5,390 bases of DNA from Acidobacteriota bacterium (GTDB taxonomy: Bacteria; Acidobacteriota; Terriglobia; Terriglobales; Acidobacteriaceae). This document shows positions 1 to 5,390 of this stretch, in pieces. The stretch covers positions 1 through 5,390 of the forward strand of contig JAJZFE010000087.1 of NCBI GenBank assembly GCA_021798655.1. Direction: 5' to 3'. Position numbers and translations under genes: made by a program. The notes beneath the pieces were generated by a model. The model ran no database searches. It was not told the DNA's origin and saw only the letters and a program-made list of their open reading frames with translations. Each line of letters opens with the position of its first letter. Positions within the stretch are counted from its first letter, which is position 1.

Positions 1-729
1 GAAGCGGAGACGCTTTTCCGCGACGCAGCTCTGCTGAAAGAAAAGCTGCCACGGCGCGATGGTGGTGCCGACGATGGCGATGATGAGGAAGACGAGGCTG
101 CCGGTAAAGCCGCCTGTCGGTTGCGTGGGGATGACCGCGCTGTGCACGACGGAGGCCCAGAGTGGATGTGCGCGGTAGGCGAGCACGAACCAGAGCGTAT
201 CGAGCAGGCAGAGCGCGATGACGATGCGCTCCCAGCGGCGGTAGCTGCCGGTGACGACGAGCAGCGTGAGCGCGACCGCGGCGATGGGCACGGAGATGGC
301 AGGCCGGATACCGAAGGCGCTGAGCGCGAGCGAGACGGCGGCGAACTCCGTGATGAGCGTGAGGAAGTTGACGGCGAGGAGATCGAAGAGCGAGAAGCGT
401 CCCCACCAGGGGCCGAAGCGCTCGTAGATCATGGCGGCGTGGCCCTTGCCGGTGGCGATGCCGAGGCGCGCGACCATCTCCTGAATGAAGTAGCAGATGG
501 GCAGCAGCAGGACGAGCAGCCAGAGCAGATGCAGGCCGTACTGCCCGCCGGCCTGCATGTAGGTGGAGACCGCTCCGGCGTCGTTGTCGGCCTCCATGAC
601 GATGAGGCCGGGGCCGACGACGACGAGGAACGAGAGCAGGTTGCGCAGCCACGGACGACGAACGTGGATGCCGGTGGTGGGCCGGTCTGCGACGGGGGTG
701 AGTTCGAGTTCGGGTTCCATCAGGCGCAT
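1..729 (-). CDS. NRAMP (SLC11)-superfamily divalent metal transporter, N-terminal part (cut by window edge)
   Basis: Reading the minus strand from the ATG at 729-727 gives 243 open codons running off the left edge. The protein has a short cytosolic start (about 1-30) followed by repeated hydrophobic segments (about 31-46, 66-83, 115-135, 145-160, 168-184, 210-224), as expected for an inner-membrane carrier of the LeuT fold. The TM1 region GPGLIVMEADNDAGAVSTY (39-57) aligns with NRAMP GPG-x8-DPGN, and GTTIAPWQLFFQQS (221-234) aligns with the TM6 motif GATVMPHNLYLHS. The site differs from classical Mn/Fe NRAMPs: Asp50 is kept, but DPGN reads DAGA and MPH reads APW. Loss of the Asn and Met ligands is compatible with the NRAMP-related magnesium transporter type, but the substrate is inferred. 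The start at 729 is chosen because GGAGGGAGG (739-747) lies 9 nt upstream; an in-frame ATG at 720 has poorer spacing. The gene overlaps the upstream 50-codon gene by 10 nt, suggesting translational coupling. The C-terminal half is missing. Confidence 0.9.
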   Translation of the reverse strand, partial: MRLMEPELELTPVADRPTTGIHVRRPWLRNLLSFLVVVGPGLIVMEADNDAGAVSTYMQAGGQYGLHLLWLLVLLLPICYFIQEMVARLGIATGKGHAAMIYERFGPWWGRFSLFDLLAVNFLTLITEFAAVSLALSAFGIRPAISVPIAAVALTLLVVTGSYRRWERIVIALCLLDTLWFVLAYRAHPLWASVVHSAVIPTQPTGGFTGSLVFLIIAIVGTTIAPWQLFFQQSCVAEKRLRF

Positions 730-872
730 CGGCGTAAACCTCCCTCCGTGGTGGTGGTGGTGAGGGTTGCGGCCTGCGCTGCGGTGAGCCAGACGGCGGC
801 GAGCGGCGCGGCAGGGTTGCCGGTGGGACGCCAGACGCGGACGAGTCGTGTGTTGAGGGTGGTGCAGAACAT
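720..872 (-). CDS. Small 50-residue protein translationally coupled to the NRAMP-like transporter
   Basis: A 51-codon reading frame on the minus strand starts at ATG 872-870 and ends with TGA at 722-720. A perfect Shine-Dalgarno AGGAGG (878-883) sits 5 nt upstream, the best ribosome site in the window. Third codon positions are strongly C/G, as in the transporter downstream. The product is soluble-looking and basic: a core NTRLVRVWRPTGNP (7-20) followed by APLAAVWL (22-29), then an Ala/Thr stretch with five Thr in a row (38-42) and an Arg-rich end. No signal peptide, membrane helix or known metal-binding motif is evident, and I do not recognise the family. Codons 43-45 also carry the GGAGG of the transporter, and the stop lies 10 nt inside the transporter gene, so ribosomes finishing here could reinitiate on the transporter. 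It may be a functional accessory protein or a coupling leader; the W-x-PTGNP-x-PL-x-x-VW pattern looks like constrained protein rather than random sequence. Confidence 0.68.
   Translation of the reverse strand: MFCTTLNTRLVRVWRPTGNPAAPLAAVWLTAAQAATLTTTTTEGGLRRCA
739..747 (-). promoter_or_regulatory. Ribosome binding site of the NRAMP-like gene
   Basis: GGAGGGAGG on the minus strand lies 9 nt before ATG 729. It decides the start at 729 over the in-frame ATG at 720 and lies entirely inside the coding sequence of the small upstream gene. Confidence 0.75.
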
Positions 873-877
873 GGTTG

Positions 878-883
878 CCTCCT
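878..883 (-). promoter_or_regulatory. Ribosome binding site of the 50-residue small gene
   Basis: A consensus AGGAGG on the minus strand is separated by 5 nt (CAACC) from ATG 872. It is the main evidence, with codon bias, that the small frame is translated. Confidence 0.72.
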
Positions 884-973
884 GGCTGACGCAGACGGAA
901 GCGTGCAGGCAGGCGCGAATGCGCGCAGCTGCGAGAGTTCGTCACGTCGGGCTGGGGGGAGGGGTGAGGCAGG

Positions 974-988
974 CGGCCAAAGAGGCCG
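974..988 (-). repeat. Small inverted repeat (5-bp stem) in the minus-strand leader
   Basis: CGGCC (974-978) and GGCCG (984-988) flank a 5-nt loop. It lies about 100 nt upstream of the small gene's start, so it would be in its 5' leader if transcription begins upstream near 1180. No T-run follows on either strand, so it is not a standard terminator. Confidence 0.45.
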
Positions 989-1006
989 GGACTCACGCGC
1001 TCGCGG

Positions 1007-1026
1007 TCACAGGTGGAATGCTGTGA
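1007..1026 (-). repeat. Inverted repeat TCACAG-N8-CTGTGA in the leader
   Basis: TCACAG (1007-1012) is exactly complementary to CTGTGA (1021-1026) across an 8-nt loop. The form could be a leader hairpin or a dimeric-protein site; TCACAG/CTGTGA half-sites resemble CRP-like TGTGA arms, but the spacing and weak fit elsewhere do not allow that assignment. Confidence 0.4.
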
Positions 1027-1045
1027 GGAGCGGTGAGGAGATCGT

Positions 1046-1132
1046 CTAGGGGAGACGGTTTCCAGAGCGCTCGATGCAGCACAGGAGAGCCGGAGTGGTA
1101 CTCGGAGGCTCGATGGTGGGCTGGTGGCTCAT
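1046..1132 (-). CDS. Possible 28-residue leader peptide upstream of the transporter unit
   Basis: A short minus-strand frame opens at ATG 1132-1130 and ends at TAG 1048-1046. AAAGGA (1138-1143) is placed 5 nt ahead of the start, an ordinary good ribosome site. The peptide begins MSHQPTIEPP, has an adjacent Cys pair at residues 18-19 (LLCC) and ends GNRLP; it has no recognisable domain. It lies between the CsoR-like dyad and the small coupled gene, about 170 nt upstream of the latter, so it could be a leader peptide of the same transcript. Against it, 28 codons with a good ribosome site can arise by chance, and the same frame is open further upstream without another convincing start. Only conservation or ribosome profiling would settle it. 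Confidence 0.33.
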   Translation of the reverse strand: MSHQPTIEPPSTTPALLCCIERSGNRLP

Positions 1133-1154
1133 GGGGTTCCTTTGCGGAGATTCG

Positions 1155-1175
1155 GTTGCGGGATGTTCCTGCAAC
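1155..1175 (-). repeat. Imperfect inverted repeat GTTGC...GCAAC
   Basis: GTTGC (1155-1159) pairs with GCAAC (1171-1175); one mismatch inward, GG (1161-1162) pairs with CC (1168-1169). It lies just inside the probable minus-strand transcript, between the CsoR-like dyad and the 28-codon frame. It could be an RNA hairpin or a second operator. Confidence 0.4.
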
Positions 1176-1181
1176 TTTCTG

Positions 1182-1211
1182 AGAGTAGCATACCCCGGTA
1201 GGGTATAGCAA
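1182..1211 (-). promoter_or_regulatory. Weak candidate promoter for the minus-strand transporter unit
   Basis: On the minus strand, TTGCTA (1211-1206) could serve as -35 and TACTCT (1187-1182) as -10 with an 18-nt spacer. Neither matches consensus closely; TATGCT (1192-1187) is a better -10 but then the spacer is only 13 nt. The attraction is positional: the metal-sensor-like dyad occupies the spacer almost exactly. Confidence 0.25.
1190..1206. promoter_or_regulatory. CsoR/RcnR-family-like metal-sensor operator
   Basis: The 17-bp dyad has perfect 6-bp arms, ATACCC (1190-1195) and GGGTAT (1201-1206), around CGGTA. On the minus strand it reads ATACCCTACCGGGGTAT, very close to the ATACCC-(C/T)-x-x-GGGTAT class of sites known for copper- or persulfide-sensing CsoR/CstR repressors. 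This is motif recognition from memory, and no such regulator is encoded in the window. It lies within the spacer of a weak minus-strand promoter candidate, where a repressor would block transcription of the transporter unit. Control in the nuoI direction is possible but the start is 155 bp away. Confidence 0.5.
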
Positions 1212-1346
1212 GGCGCTTGAGCGAGACGGGGGAAGAGCCTTTGTGCGGATATGGCGCGGTCGCTCTGCGAGCCCACATCTCAACGAGCGAGCTGTGGGGC
1301 ACCCAGCCCGTATGCCGGGGACAAGGACTGTTTACGGCGAAGGTCG

Positions 1347-1352
1347 TATACT
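1347..1352 (+). promoter_or_regulatory. Possible -10 element just upstream of nuoI
   Basis: TATACT is a good -10 match, but no reasonable -35 hexamer lies 16-18 nt upstream. If used, transcription would start around 1358-1361, giving an almost leaderless message; the overlapping GGAGG ribosome site (1353-1357) argues instead for a transcript starting further upstream. Confidence 0.22.
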
Positions 1353-1360
1353 GGAGGTCT

Positions 1361-1828
1361 ATGTCGATCATCAAAAATGTTGCCGCCATCGCCAAGGGAA
1401 TGAGCATCACGCTGCGGGAGGGTTTTCAGCCGACCGAGGTGGAGAACTATCCGGATGGCAAGGGGCCCATGCGCGGGGCGCAGTTCAAGCAGCGGTTTCG
1501 CGGCAAGCACGAGCTGCAGCGCGATGAGAACGGGCTGGAGAAGTGCGTGGCGTGTTTTCTGTGCGCGGCGGCGTGCCCCAGCAACTGCATCTACATCGAG
1601 GCCGCGGACAACACCGAAGAGGTGCGGATCTCCAGCGCCGAACGGTACGCGAAGGTCTACAACATCGACTACAACCGGTGCATCTTCTGCGGCTACTGCG
1701 TGGAGGCGTGTCCGACCGATGCGATCACGCACGGGCACGGCTTTGAGCTGGCGAGCCTGAACGCGACCAGCATGGTGATGCGCAAGGAAGACCTGCTGGT
1801 GCAGGTGCAGGGCGTCGCACACCGATAA
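1361..1828 (+). CDS. nuoI: NADH-quinone oxidoreductase subunit I (NuoI), 2x[4Fe-4S] ferredoxin
   Basis: This 155-residue protein is the peripheral-arm subunit of respiratory complex I that carries two [4Fe-4S] clusters (N6a and N6b) passing electrons from the NADH side towards quinone at the membrane. Two classical cluster motifs are complete: Cys62, 65, 68, 72 followed by Pro73, and Cys107, 110, 113, 117 followed by Pro118. Family blocks are clear: FRGKHELQRDENGLEKC, the SAERYAKVYNIDYNRCIF segment (92-109) and the KEDLL near the end (142-146). Length is typical of the short bacterial form. The start at 1361 is preferred because MSIIKNVA matches the family start and GGAGG (1353-1357) sits 3 nt upstream; an upstream TTG at 1217 would add about 48 unrelated residues. 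It stands alone, divergent from the transporter unit and followed by a hairpin, with no nuoH or nuoJ beside it. Confidence 0.95.
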   Translation: MSIIKNVAAIAKGMSITLREGFQPTEVENYPDGKGPMRGAQFKQRFRGKHELQRDENGLEKCVACFLCAAACPSNCIYIEAADNTEEVRISSAERYAKVYNIDYNRCIFCGYCVEACPTDAITHGHGFELASLNATSMVMRKEDLLVQVQGVAHR

Positions 1829-1859
1829 GTCCACAGATCGAGAGATCGAAGGCATGGAG

Positions 1860-1881
1860 CGGCGAGCCTGAGGGCTCGCCG
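1860..1881. terminator. Strong hairpin downstream of nuoI, possible terminator
   Basis: CGGCGAGCC (1860-1868) and GGCTCGCCG (1873-1881) form a perfect 9-bp GC-rich stem with a TGAG tetraloop, beginning 31 nt after the nuoI stop. The sequence after it (TGTTGCGAT) lacks a proper T-run, so it would be a weak intrinsic terminator; it may instead stabilise the nuoI mRNA end or slow read-through into metH. Confidence 0.5.
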
Positions 1882-1918
1882 TGTTGCGATAGGCGCGTGT
1901 CGTCGGCGAGACGCAAAC

Positions 1919-1943
1919 GCAGATTCCCTACGGGAATGACAAG
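1919..1943. repeat. Short palindromic dispersed repeat, copy 1 (intergenic)
   Basis: GCAGATTCC-CTAC-GGGAATGACAAG contains the hairpin ATTCCC (1923-1928)/GGGAAT (1932-1937) with a 3-nt loop. Its ends, GCAGATTCC and GGAATGACAAG, recur exactly at 4051-4083 around a different centre. This conserved-ends, variable-centre form is that of a REP-like dispersed palindrome. It ends about 30 nt before the metH start. Confidence 0.65.
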
Positions 1944-1972
1944 GCAGTAAGACGGGACGCAGACAGGTGACG

Positions 1973-3076
1973 ATGACGCAAAAGCATCCGTTGGAGAAGA
2001 TTTTCGAGAAGCGCATTGCCATCATTGATGGCGCGATGGGCACGACGATCCGCACGTATGGCATGGCGGAGAAGGACATTCGCGGGGAGCGGTTTGCGAA
2101 CTCGACCAAAGACCTGCTGAACAACGGCGACCTGTTTTCACTGACGCAGCCGACGATGATCTGCGATATTCATCGGCGGTTTCTGGAGGCGGGTGCGGAC
2201 ATCATCGAGACGAACACGTTCGGTGCGACGAGCATCACGCAGAGCGAGTTTTTTGTGGACGACCCGCGCGAGCACGGCGGGCGAAAGAACCCTGAGTTCT
2301 ATCAGAAGATCATCGACGACACGATGCTGAGCGGCCTGGCGTGGGAGATCAACGAGACGAGCGCGCGGCAGTGTCGCGAGTGGGCGGATCGCGTGGCGAA
2401 TGAGACGGGGCGGCAGCGGTTTGTGGCCGGCGCAATCGGGCCGCTGACGGTGTCGCTGTCGAACTCGCCGGACGCCGACGATGCGGGGTTTCGCGTGGTG
2501 ACGTTCGACCAGGTGTTGAAGGCGTACAAGGAGCAGGTGCGCGCGTTGATTGCGGGCGGCAGCGACCTGCTGCTGGTGGAGACGATCTTCGACAGCCTGA
2601 ATGCGAAGGCCGCGCTGGTGGCTATTCGCGAGGTGTTCGATGAGGACAAGGTTGAGTTGCCGGTGAGCATCTCGGCGGCTGTGGGGCGTGGTGGCGAGAC
2701 GCTGATCTCGGCGCAGACGACGGAGGCATTCTGGACGGCGGTGAAGCATGTGAAGCCGCTGAGCGTGGGGCTGAACTGCTCGCTGGGTCCGGATTTGATG
2801 TATCCGTTCTTGAGCGAGCTGGCGGAGAAGGCGGACGTTGCGGTGAGCGCGTATCCGAATGCGGGGCTGCCGAATCCGTTGAGTGAGACGGGCTTCGACC
2901 TGGGGCCGGAGGATATGGCGCGGTATCTGGGCGGGTTTGCGAAGGATGGGCTGATTAATATTGCGGGTGGTTGCTGCGGAAATACGCCGGAGCATATTGC
3001 GGCGATTGCGAAGGCGCTGGAGGGTGTTGCGCCGCGTGCGATCAAGCGGGAGATCGAGCGGGAGGTGGCGGCTTGA
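1973..3076 (+). CDS. metH: Split methionine synthase, homocysteine S-methyltransferase (Hcy) module
   Basis: This 367-residue cytosolic protein corresponds to the N-terminal barrel of MetH, which binds and activates homocysteine through zinc for methyl transfer from methylcobalamin. The entry block [15 protein letters not shown] (17-31), [16 protein letters not shown] (72-87), [20 protein letters not shown] (195-214), VGLNCSLGP (265-273) and [14 protein letters not shown] (329-342) are all present. The zinc ligands are Cys269, Cys334 and Cys335, equivalent to E. coli Cys247, 310 and 311. Compared with E. coli there is an extra segment near 93-121, and the usual SGTITDASGRTLSGQ stretch reads [15 protein letters not shown] (234-248). 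I take ATG 1973, with AGG 5 nt upstream; an in-frame GTG at 1967 would add two residues. The protein ends after the barrel; the remaining MetH modules are in the next gene, overlapping by TTGA. A stand-alone homocysteine methyltransferase (MmuM/BHMT type) is less likely given that neighbour. Confidence 0.93.
3061..3066 (+). promoter_or_regulatory. Ribosome binding site fixing the TTG start of the second metH gene
   Basis: GGAGGT lies 7 nt before TTG 3073, inside the last codons of the first metH gene. It is a strong site at ideal spacing and is the main reason to accept a TTG start, with a TTGA stop-start overlap. Confidence 0.75.
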
Positions 3077-5390
3077 GCGGCAGGAAAGAAAACGCGGAGG
3101 GGACGGAGGCGGCGGAGGTTTCGCAGAGGTGTAAACCGCTGCGGCTGTCGGGGTCGCAGCCGTTTACGCAGCAGGTGGGCGTGTACATGATGATCGGTGA
3201 GCGGACGAATGTGGCGGGGTCGCCGAAGTTTGCCAAGCTCATCAAGGAAGGCAAATATGAAGAGGCGGTGAGCGTTGCGCGGCAGCAGGTAGAGAACGGC
3301 GCGAACGTGATCGACATCTGCATGGACGAAGGGATGATCGACGGCGTGGCCGCGATGACGCGTTATCTGCAGCTGCTGGGGAGCGAGCCGGAGGTGGCGA
3401 AGGCGCCGTTCATGGTGGACTCGTCGAAGTGGGAGGTGATTGAGGCAGGGCTGAAGTGCCTGCAGGGCAAGGGGATTGTGAACTCGATCTCGCTGAAGGA
3501 GGGCGAGGAGGTGTTCAAGCAGCGCGCGCGTGCGGTGCTGAAGTATGGCGCTGCGGTGGTGGTGATGGCGTTCGATGAGAACGGCCAGGCAGCGACGTAT
3601 GCGGAGAAGATTCGCATCTGTAAGCGGGCCTACGATTTGTTGGTGGAGGAGGTTGGGTTCCCGCCGGAGGACATCATCTTCGATCCGAACATCCTGACGG
3701 TGGCGACGGGGATGGAGGAGCACAACAACTATGCGGTGGACTTTATCGAGGCCACGCGCTGGATCAAGCACAACCTGCCGCACGCGAAGGTGAGTGGCGG
3801 CGTGAGCAATATCAGCTTCAGCTTTCGCGGCAACAACAAGGTGCGCGAGGCGATGCACTCGGCGTTTCTGTATCACGCGATTGCGGCCGGCATGGATATG
3901 GGCATCGTCAACGCCGGGATGCTGGAGGTGTATGAGGAGATTGAGCCGGAGCTGAAGGTGCTGGTGGAGGATGTGCTGCTGAATCGCAGGCCGGATGCGA
4001 CGGAGCGGCTGGTGGACTTTGGGGAGGCGCTGAAGGCGGAGGCTGGAAATGCAGATTCCTCCGCTGCGCTGCGGAATGACAAGAAGAATGAGGCGTGGCG
4101 GGGTGGGACGGTGGAGGAGCGGCTGAGCCATGCGCTGGTGAAGGGGATCGATGCGTATATCGACGCGGACACCGAAGAGGCGCGGGCGAAGCTGGGCCGG
4201 CCGCTGCTGGTGATTGAAGGGCCGTTGATGGACGGCATGAGCGTGGTGGGAGACCTGTTCGGGGCGGGCAAGATGTTTCTGCCGCAGGTGGTGAAGAGCG
4301 CGCGCGTGATGAAGAAGGCGGTCGCGTACCTGACACCGTTTATGGAGGCGGAGAAGGCGGCAATGATCGCTGCAGGCCAGGAGGTGAAGGCGCAGGGCAA
4401 GATCGTGCTGGCGACGGTGAAGGGCGATGTGCATGACATCGGCAAGAACATTGTGGGCGTGGTGCTGGCGTGCAACAACTTCGAGGTGATCGACATGGGC
4501 GTGATGGTGGCGGCCGAGAAGATCCTGGAACGAGCGAAGGAGGTACGCGCGGACATTATCGGGTTGAGCGGGCTGATTACGCCGTCGCTCGACGAGATGG
4601 TGCATGTGGCCAAGGAGATGGAGCGGCAGGGCTTCAAGCTGCCACTGCTGATTGGCGGGGCGACGACGAGTCGCGCGCATACGGCGGTGAAGATAGCGCC
4701 GCACTACTCGCAGCCTGTGGTGCACGTGCTGGACGCGAGCCGCGCGGTGCCGGTGACGACGAGCCTGTTGAGCGAGGACGGCAAGGATGAGTTTGTCTCG
4801 CAGCATCGCGCGGAGTATGAGGCGGTGCGGAGGCAGCACGCGGCTCCGAAGCAGGAGACGCTGCCGCTGGAAGAGGCACGCAAGCGACGGACGCCAATTG
4901 AGTTTGTGGTGGAAGACCTGGCGGTGCCGGAGGAGTTTGGCATCAAGGTGATGGAAGCGTTTCCGCTGAAGACGCTGCGCGAGTTCATCGACTGGAGCCC
5001 GTTCTTCCATACCTGGGGGATGAAGGGGCTGTACCCGCGGATACTGGACGATGAGCGGCAGGGGGCGGAGGCGCAGAAGCTGTTTGCGGATGGACAGAAG
5101 CTGCTGGACCGGATCGTTGCGGAGAAGTTGATTACAGCACGCGGCGTGTACGGGCTGTTTCGCGCGAACGCTGTGGGCGATGATGTGGAGCTGTACACCG
5201 ACGAGACGCGCGGCGAGGTGACGGCGACGCTGCACTTTCTGCGCCAGCAGACGGGACGCGATGGCGCGAAGCCGTGCCGATCGCTGGCGGACTTTATTGC
5301 GCCGCGCGAGACGCGGCTGCAGGACTCGATCGGCGCGTTTGCCGTGACGGCGGGGATTGGCGTGCATGAGCTTTGCGAGTCGTTTCGCAG
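3073..5390 (+). CDS. metH: Split methionine synthase, folate/cobalamin/reactivation modules (3' end outside window)
   Basis: This frame encodes 772 residues before the window ends and matches E. coli MetH from its second domain onward. After a polar, low-complexity start (1-24), the methyltetrahydrofolate-binding (pterin) barrel runs from about 25 to 300 ([17 protein letters not shown] 39-55, [16 protein letters not shown] 112-127, [11 protein letters not shown] 204-214, [15 protein letters not shown] 241-255). The four-helix cap follows (about 345-435, [17 protein letters not shown]), then the cobalamin domain with [12 protein letters not shown] (451-462). His454 is the lower cobalt ligand (E. 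coli His759); [11 protein letters not shown] (499-509) and GGATTSR (528-534) line the cofactor. The AdoMet-dependent reactivation domain begins near 625 and includes DWSPFFHTW (640-648), whose Asp matches the AdoMet-contacting Asp946 of E. coli; the later RxxxGY AdoMet motif lies beyond the edge. It shares homocysteine activation with the preceding gene, so both proteins must assemble or dock. The linker at 327-337 is encoded by a dispersed repeat copy. Confidence 0.95.
4051..4083. repeat. Short palindromic dispersed repeat, copy 2 (inside metH coding sequence)
   Basis: This copy has the same ends as copy 1, GCAGATTCC (4051-4059) and GGAATGACAAG (4073-4083), around a 13-nt centre. ATTCC/GGAAT form the outer stem, and TCCGC can pair with GCGGA. 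It is read in frame as [11 protein letters not shown] (residues 327-337 of the second MetH protein), between the pterin barrel and the cap, where MetH linkers vary in sequence. Confidence 0.65.

Follow-up and report, generated by a model that had tools for sequence, protein, structure and literature searches.

A conserved small gene and a putative two-uORF leader of metal uptake genes in the Acidobacteriaceae

Described leaders of metal transport genes and the present locus

Small upstream open reading frames (uORFs) are known from several leaders of metal transport genes. First, in the enterobacteria, mgtL of mgtA and corL of corA are uORFs with acidic residues and prolines, followed by hairpins and then by the gene for a Mg2+ transporter, and in mgtL it is the prolines and acidic residues that exert control over the transporter (accessible text of PMC11552253). 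Secondly, CruR, a DUF2946 protein encoded by the uORF of bfrG in Bordetella, is the product of the first cistron before an outer-membrane metal receptor gene, and carries a CXXC motif and a C-terminal RAPP arrest motif. Thirdly, copper leaders of the CutF/CopL type place a small protein upstream of metal genes together with a stem-loop that shields the ribosome-binding site; CutF is exported and has a stalling-like, proline-rich motif at its C-terminus. The idea of reinitiation from a leader to a structural gene also underlies the leader genes with short stop-to-start distances of Korolev 2016; the accessible part of that work names no family such as the one described here, and leader genes overlapping structural genes fall outside its predictions.

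We analysed a window of 5,390 nucleotides of an Acidobacteriota genome (assembly GCA_021798655.1, contig JAJZFE010000087.1, positions 1–5,390), for which a 50-codon gene coupled to a transporter gene had been predicted from the letters of the sequence. Judged by comparison with its relatives, this frame, here called uORF2, is the last part of a conserved leader of about 330 nt that comprises an operator, a further small frame (uORF1), an RNA hairpin, a CCTCC element and uORF2 itself; operator, uORF1 and hairpin lay beyond the view of the original prediction. The reading that we favour, with a probability of about 0.58, is that uORF2 forms part of a cis-acting two-uORF attenuator of metal uptake that is coupled to a DUF156 repressor in the Acidobacteriaceae.

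Several relationships to the described systems emerge. In an arrangement that recalls the mgtL and corL leaders, a uORF with an acidic-proline motif (uORF1, QEPPS) and a hairpin precede a transporter gene, but here there are two uORFs and a DUF156-type operator, and porin and receptor genes are headed by the same leader; no likeness beyond the acidic-proline motif was noticed, without a sequence comparison. uORF2 shares with CruR its place as first cistron, but has neither the CXXC nor the RAPP motif, and its protein has no match to DUF2946 in Pfam. The position upstream of metal genes and the predicted shielding of a ribosome-binding site recall the CutF/CopL type, from which uORF2 differs in ending with CA and, on inspection, in having no hydrophobic segment; inspection of the uORF2 proteins likewise showed neither a Sec signal peptide nor a proline-rich C-terminus. 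Most likely the leader works like that of mgtL-mgtA or CruR while being unrelated to them in sequence. The locus adds a small-protein family that had escaped annotation, and its leader seemingly combines transcriptional, RNA and nascent-peptide layers outside the enterobacteria; among the titles and abstract openings listed in searches of the open-access literature there was no earlier description of the uORF2 family, the leader or the regulon.

The small gene uORF2, its family and the transporter it overlaps

uORF2 occupies positions 720–872 of the reverse strand, from an ATG at 872–870 to a TGA stop at 722–720, and the ATG lies 5 nt past the end of the Shine-Dalgarno sequence AGGAGG (878–883, reverse strand). 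Its core is WRPTGNPAAPLAAVW and its C-terminus RRCA. The transporter ATG is at 729–727 on the same strand, such that the 3′ end of uORF2 overlaps the transporter gene by 10 nt, and the Shine-Dalgarno sequence of the latter, GGAGGGAGG (739–747, reverse strand), is embedded in uORF2. The 50-codon frame, the spacing of the AGGAGG, the 10-nt overlap and the embedded GGAGG are all exactly as claimed in the original prediction when checked against the sequence and the list of open reading frames.

The transporter gene is represented by its 5′ part, 243 codons within the window (1–729, reverse strand), and its product belongs, as predicted, to the NRAMP family (PF01566, E 2.6e-45). It is not a classical NRAMP/MntH protein, however, and by sequence and structural matches it is NRMT-like. 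The best solved structure for the part in the window is the NRAMP-related Mg2+ transporter EleNRMT (7qia, E 2.5e-45), followed at a distance by 10ky (2.3e-12) and by MntH entries (1.7e-9 or weaker), and 7qia is also the best structure for the Terriglobus roseus orthologue, which aligns with it over residues 19–426. The motif pair given for NRMT proteins is DxxG-TxxA/T (accessible text of PMC8806188). The TxxA of helix 6 is shared, with GTTIAPW in the window, the orthologue and 7qia, whereas in helix 1 the DAGG of 7qia is replaced by DAGA (DxxA); because the DxxG motif is missing we call the protein NRMT-like and not NRMT. Its substrate is likely to be Mg2+ or Mn2+.

Homologues of uORF2 were sought by tblastn, with the low-complexity filter and composition correction off, in the best 80 of at least 573 loci encoding relatives of the transporter. 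The nearest, 63% identical (E 1.7e-16), occupies the same position in Granulicella paludicola (L001); further ones lie upstream of the transporter gene in Edaphobacter, T. roseus and other Acidobacteria. A loose core pattern places uORF2 beside the transporter gene in 13 loci out of these 80. Five pattern-negative upstream regions were also inspected by eye, with diverged copies in L011 and L012 and none in L014, L016 and L018; pattern and reading by eye together show that, of the 15 nearest loci, 14 have uORF2 immediately before the transporter gene, in line with the tBLASTn check that had been suggested for the prediction. A classification of L011, L012 and L014 as gene-less was discarded: the operator and uORF1 are present in all three, and only L014 is without uORF2.

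Of the 498 candidates that a profile of 14 members (A1) drew from a set of 5.8 billion proteins, 250 had E≤1. The original prediction regarded the core as constrained, and among the 120 proteins listed its residues are indeed W in 120, T in 117, G in 117, P in 119, L in 119 and W in 120, each thus conserved in at least 117; the C-terminal Cys is present in 116 (with CA at the end of 99 and CL of 12), and at the middle position of 'GNP' 70 proteins have N and 41 have D. These 120 came from profile A1 itself, and the counts lean towards the profile. Those that are named are labelled 'hypothetical' or 'uncharacterized', with the exception of one transposase label. A wider profile (A5) adds a branch with the core FVETGDERCP(L/I)AGIW, with the relaxed core in 84 of the 120 proteins listed. 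The family is uncatalogued, as had been supposed, in that no Pfam or NCBIfam model covers it: the uORF2 protein of the window has no Pfam family at E≤1, and the 14 members gave nothing above chance against Pfam/NCBIfam, with two weak single-member matches (E 0.023 and 0.085).

The profile matches 94 of 398 genomes of the family to which G. paludicola belongs at E≤0.01, the weakest of these being doubtful, and 84 of the 94 have a single match; matches weaker than those fetched in this search were excluded from uORF2 membership. When the phylum was sampled evenly, 10 of 396 genomes matched at E≤1e-4, and all ten had already been found in the family of G. paludicola.

The pattern of substitution is biased towards synonymous change, which was the second check suggested. 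Between the window and G. paludicola pS is 0.51 and pN 0.19, and among 25 window-type sequences (including L109, L118, L120 and L122, in which no transporter was found downstream) the median dN/dS is 0.46, with 181 of the 183 unsaturated pairs (of 300) below 1. When all 65 uORF2s and 60 uORF1s are taken, synonymous sites are near saturation and the median dN/dS rises to 0.55 and 0.48, respectively. Five core positions (Thr, Gly, Pro, Pro, Leu) each use 3–4 synonymous codons in 41 strict cores, and constraint thus acts on the uORF2 peptide. A chance open frame, or codon constraint imposed by the overlap, is hardly credible as an explanation: the overlap with the transporter start does constrain the last codons of uORF2, but the core is far from it, frame and core are conserved across loci in which uORF2 differs in length, and there is a family of database proteins, such that we regard this reading as refuted by the comparative data. 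On the same comparative grounds the frame at 720–872 (reverse strand) is a real, conserved and previously unannotated small gene.

Putative operator, uORF1 and leader RNA

At the far end of the leader, inspection of the related leaders suggests a promoter with a −35 element TTGCTA (1206–1211, reverse strand; TTGACT in several relatives) and a −10 element TACTCT (1182–1187, reverse strand; TATAAA or TACAAA in several relatives). Between these is the palindrome ATACCCTACCGGGGTAT (1190–1206, reverse strand), a putative operator for a repressor of the CsoR/RcnR/FrmR family. The strict palindrome (ATACCC-N5-GGGGTAT) is found 256–402 nt upstream of uORF2 in 30 of 70 uORF2 loci, a count made without a shuffle control, and a 21-base operator pattern with one mismatch allowed has 21 matches in 13 of 16 chosen genomes, against 2 for the same pattern written backwards. 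A gene of the DUF156 type (RcnR/FrmR family) is divergently oriented upstream in 28 of the 70 loci; neither the leader of the window nor that of G. paludicola L001 was seen to have one beside it. The targets of RcnR and FrmR are efflux or formaldehyde genes, whereas the same type of divergent repressor is here associated with import and channel genes. PF02583 was sought in the T. roseus protein and matches it (E 7.5e-21). Alignment of the divergent gene product to FrmR 5lcy, which we take to be the E64H variant, gives Cys35, His60 and His64; the Cys at the position-35 site is present in the matches, and residue 3 varies among the divergent proteins. The E64H variant of FrmR gains a response to Zn and Co (accessible text of PMC5016687).

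uORF1 (1046–1132, reverse strand) has 28 codons and encodes MSHQPTIEPPSTTPALLCCIERSGNRLP, with the form MSxESAQEPPSxxxSxLCCDERS in relatives. A frame with [ED]PP is present in 60 of the 68 leaders scored (two of the 70 being too short), as compared to 0–2 of 68 in ten dinucleotide shuffles, 2 in reversed and 1 in reverse-complemented leaders; relative to the N-terminal acidic and proline richness of the mgtL type, the content is modest. The median dN/dS of uORF1 is 0.32 in 25 sequences, with 279 of 288 pairs below 1. Of the 60 frames, 54 use CCT for the first Pro, and an RNA role at this codon is therefore possible.

Downstream of uORF1 is the hairpin P1 (984–1043, reverse strand; CTCACCGCTC-TCACAG / CTGTGA-GAGCG-GTGAG). 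A consensus fold of the whole leader (RNAalifold on a MAFFT alignment of 51 leaders) gave only five pairs, all within P1, and P1 was therefore modelled separately. The covariance model (R1), built from 27 leaders with the window left out, matches P1 of the window with a score of 52.5 bits (E about 1e-11) and has 42 matches in 59 sources; the other 17 are without a match, though most of these are predicted to form a hairpin. Over the 42 rows 92.2% of cells are paired, compared to 89.4% in shuffles and 18–58% in slid controls, and 7 of the 16 pairs are doubly changed, a level reached in 0 of 500 shuffles. The claim of covariation rests on this alignment (A4), which was fitted to the model and includes a partial match (L133) and L203, not recognisable as a leader. 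Covariation is weaker in the ungapped seed of 27 leaders (A3), for which 67 of 500 shuffles were as high in double-change pairs, 40 in further pair types and 10 in covariation score. Searched across the class, the model matches 17 of 399 genomes, 14 of them beside a uORF2 match; the remaining matches are L198 and L202, which are leaders without this uORF2, and L203, the weakest.

A conserved loop (CATACGACC) on a covarying stem is also what might be expected if P1 and the stretch as far as uORF2 were a metal-binding riboswitch with the uORFs secondary. We consider this quite improbable: at E≤1 Rfam matches neither the window's leader nor those of six relatives (the lone Rfam match in the window is to a microRNA, E 0.29, outside the leader), the whole-leader fold yields nothing beyond the pairs of P1, and the P1 model is silent in L011, L012 and L014 despite the presence of operator and uORF1.

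Between P1 and uORF2 is element C, CTCACCCCTCC (958–968, reverse strand), which has the anti-Shine-Dalgarno core CCTCC and is near-invariant in an alignment of 51 leaders (A2). Its core pairs with the Shine-Dalgarno sequence of uORF2 in the consensus folds of 6 of 7 subgroups. Of the single folds of 56 leaders, 51 could be scored and 44 show this pairing; both results are without a shuffle control. The exception among the subgroups is the pair formed by the window and L001, without pairing of element C; in a 195-nt fold of the window the Shine-Dalgarno sequence of uORF2 has as its partner a GCCTC that overlaps the start of element C, and in a 486-nt fold it pairs with bases other than element C. 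The GGAGG of uORF2 is predicted to be 2–14% unpaired in the full leader fold.

Leaders of the mgtL type have mutually exclusive stems and a Mg2+-dependent output; in the present leader P1 is supported and the alternative pairing tried is not. This candidate switch, in which the 3′ arm of P1 pairs with CTCACC of element C, was compared by duplex energy with other windows of the same leader and was the best in only 8 of 53 loci (3 of 56 having been dropped with no C match). Of the two roles originally suggested for the small gene, that of a coupling cistron setting transporter expression is the better one, but masking of the transporter ribosome-binding site by the end of uORF2 is no higher than in shuffles (mean unpaired 0.30 versus 0.33, 8 of 16 loci scorable).

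The leader may alternatively be a conditional Rho-dependent terminator, in which Rho gains access to C-rich RNA ahead of uORF2 when uORF1 is translated efficiently. Rho acts in the mgtL and corL leaders and between CruR and bfrG (accessible text of PMC11552253 and PMC9426467, respectively), and the C/G ratio over 68 leaders peaks at 1.73 between −120 and −60 from uORF2. This peak is modest, however, too much so for a strict reading as a Rho site, which we rejected; the window is C-rich throughout (1.3–2.6), and the conservation of CCTCC is better explained by pairing with GGAGG. As an explanation in its own right Rho-dependent termination is thus doubtful, although it could also be the output of the attenuator that we favour. 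Comparison across the relatives shows protein-level constraint in both uORFs; the operator, the hairpin, CCTCC and the order of the genes have all been conserved.

Downstream genes and the proposed function

The genes downstream of the 70 distinct uORF2s encode the transporter in 37 cases, OprB-like porins in 14 and receptor-like outer-membrane proteins in 8, and none of these three in 11, some of which lie at contig ends; near-duplicates or overlapping views are included (L010/L099, L137/L170, L003/L159), so that these counts are not independent, and L140 and L150, in which neither uORF1 nor hairpin was found, are doubtful members. One of the porin-like types is OprB (PF04966, E 1.1e-26) and a second has no Pfam match; the receptor-like protein has a CarboxypepD_reg domain and an outer-membrane barrel domain. 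Because the same type of leader precedes transporters, porins and receptors, uORF2 is not an accessory specific to this transporter. Similarly, the overlap with the main gene is real in the window but not universal. In the porin and receptor loci the main gene often begins about 70–520 nt beyond uORF2 (an estimate from alignment), and simple reinitiation is therefore not general; in L137, L138 and L142 uORF2 reads in frame into the receptor, ahead of a signal-peptide-like stretch, whereas the sister locus L132 has a stop. This in-frame run fits a cis role for uORF2.

Variants of the leader are also seen. L202 has operator, uORF1 and hairpin but no uORF2, and lies directly before an ABC permease gene (PF00528). 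L198 and L222 have an alternative second uORF, M[ND]DPVPSEPPPSRRP (DPVPSEPPP), followed by a receptor gene; uORF1 is broken in L222. Ten further operator sites were inspected, one of which, L221, proved to be that of L011. The same operator is combined in L209, L219 and L220 with a leader that is short and a uORF of the FxxTG type that is longer (core FVxTGDxxxPLxGxW); in L219 and L220 this uORF abuts or overlaps a porin-like frame. In L212, L213, L217 and L223 the operator is directly before porin- or receptor-like genes and a DUF156-type gene is divergent, with neither uORF seen. Inner-membrane importers and outer-membrane channels share the operator, the repressor family, the two uORFs and the hairpin.

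A different reading of uORF2 is that it is a free small protein acting in trans on the transporter or channel, the repressor or a metal, its operon position serving only for co-expression. AlphaFold2, with 36 sequences, predicts strands at residues 10–19 and 22–30 and a helix at 31–38 (pLDDT 87–89 for residues 11–30, mean 71, pTM 0.41), with Trp14 and Trp28 on opposite strands; a beta-hairpin such as this fits a nascent-chain element or a free miniprotein alike. A trans-acting protein would accord with this fold, with constraint at the peptide level, with the retention of uORF2 where the main gene begins about 70–520 nt away, and with retention of the C-terminal CA even at distant genes (...RLCA in L119, ...RHCA in L133). 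We nevertheless consider it unlikely, since at three loci the receptor is an in-frame continuation of uORF2, the Cys beside each Trp is not conserved in the subgroup of the window, and, as for a cis element, there is one match each in 84 of 94 genomes and a transport or outer-membrane gene, of three types, downstream of 59 of 70 copies.

Under the favoured two-uORF attenuator, the DUF156 (RcnR/FrmR-type) repressor would act at the promoter palindrome, and translation of uORF1, with its acidic-proline motif QEPPS, would be read out through P1 and CCTCC, the latter masking the ribosome-binding site of uORF2. uORF2, when translated, would hand ribosomes to the transporter gene, whose start it overlaps by 10 nt, and this transfer may be tuned by the nascent uORF2 peptide, for which a beta-hairpin carrying one Trp per strand is predicted. 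Several observations weigh against this reading: the pairing of the P1 arm with element C and the masking of the transporter site were not borne out, the Shine-Dalgarno sequence of uORF2 pairs otherwise in the long fold of the window, porin and receptor genes often begin well beyond uORF2, and the leader is incomplete or altered in L014, L198, L222 and the operator sites L212, L213, L217 and L223. We infer both that the leader switches expression, with its direction and metal, and that there is a relay from uORF1 to uORF2. A more elaborate version, which we think improbable as a whole, is a two-stage translational metal sensor, in which the acidic-proline motif of uORF1 renders the progress of ribosomes dependent on divalent cations, P1 and CCTCC act as relay, and the nascent Trp-paired hairpin of uORF2, as a second sensor, gates the transfer of ribosomes to the import genes, in addition to the DUF156 repressor. 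Were this correct, the leader would represent a multi-input class governing a whole-envelope uptake regulon, unlike any described uORF or riboswitch.

Some further features of these loci are noted. L005 has, upstream and near its uORF2 locus, a second DUF156-type gene, a His-rich protein and a P-type-ATPase-like frame; L160, a weak uORF2 member, has a small His-rich frame (MEGKHEHTHNHDHPHRH...) 141 nt after uORF2; and L218 has an operator-like site with one mismatch upstream of an apparent TolC-type outer-membrane factor, with no divergent DUF156 gene seen. Elsewhere in the window, on the forward strand, a homocysteine-methyltransferase-like frame (1967–3076) is followed by a separate frame from about 3073 with the rest; from their domain order we take the two to be a split-looking methionine synthase MetH. 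A palindromic repeat-like sequence, GATTCCTCCGCTGCGCTGCGGAATGACAAG, lies at about 4052–4083 (forward strand) inside the MetH frame, and a similar one, GATTCCCTACGGGAATGACAAG, at about 1921–1943 between genes.
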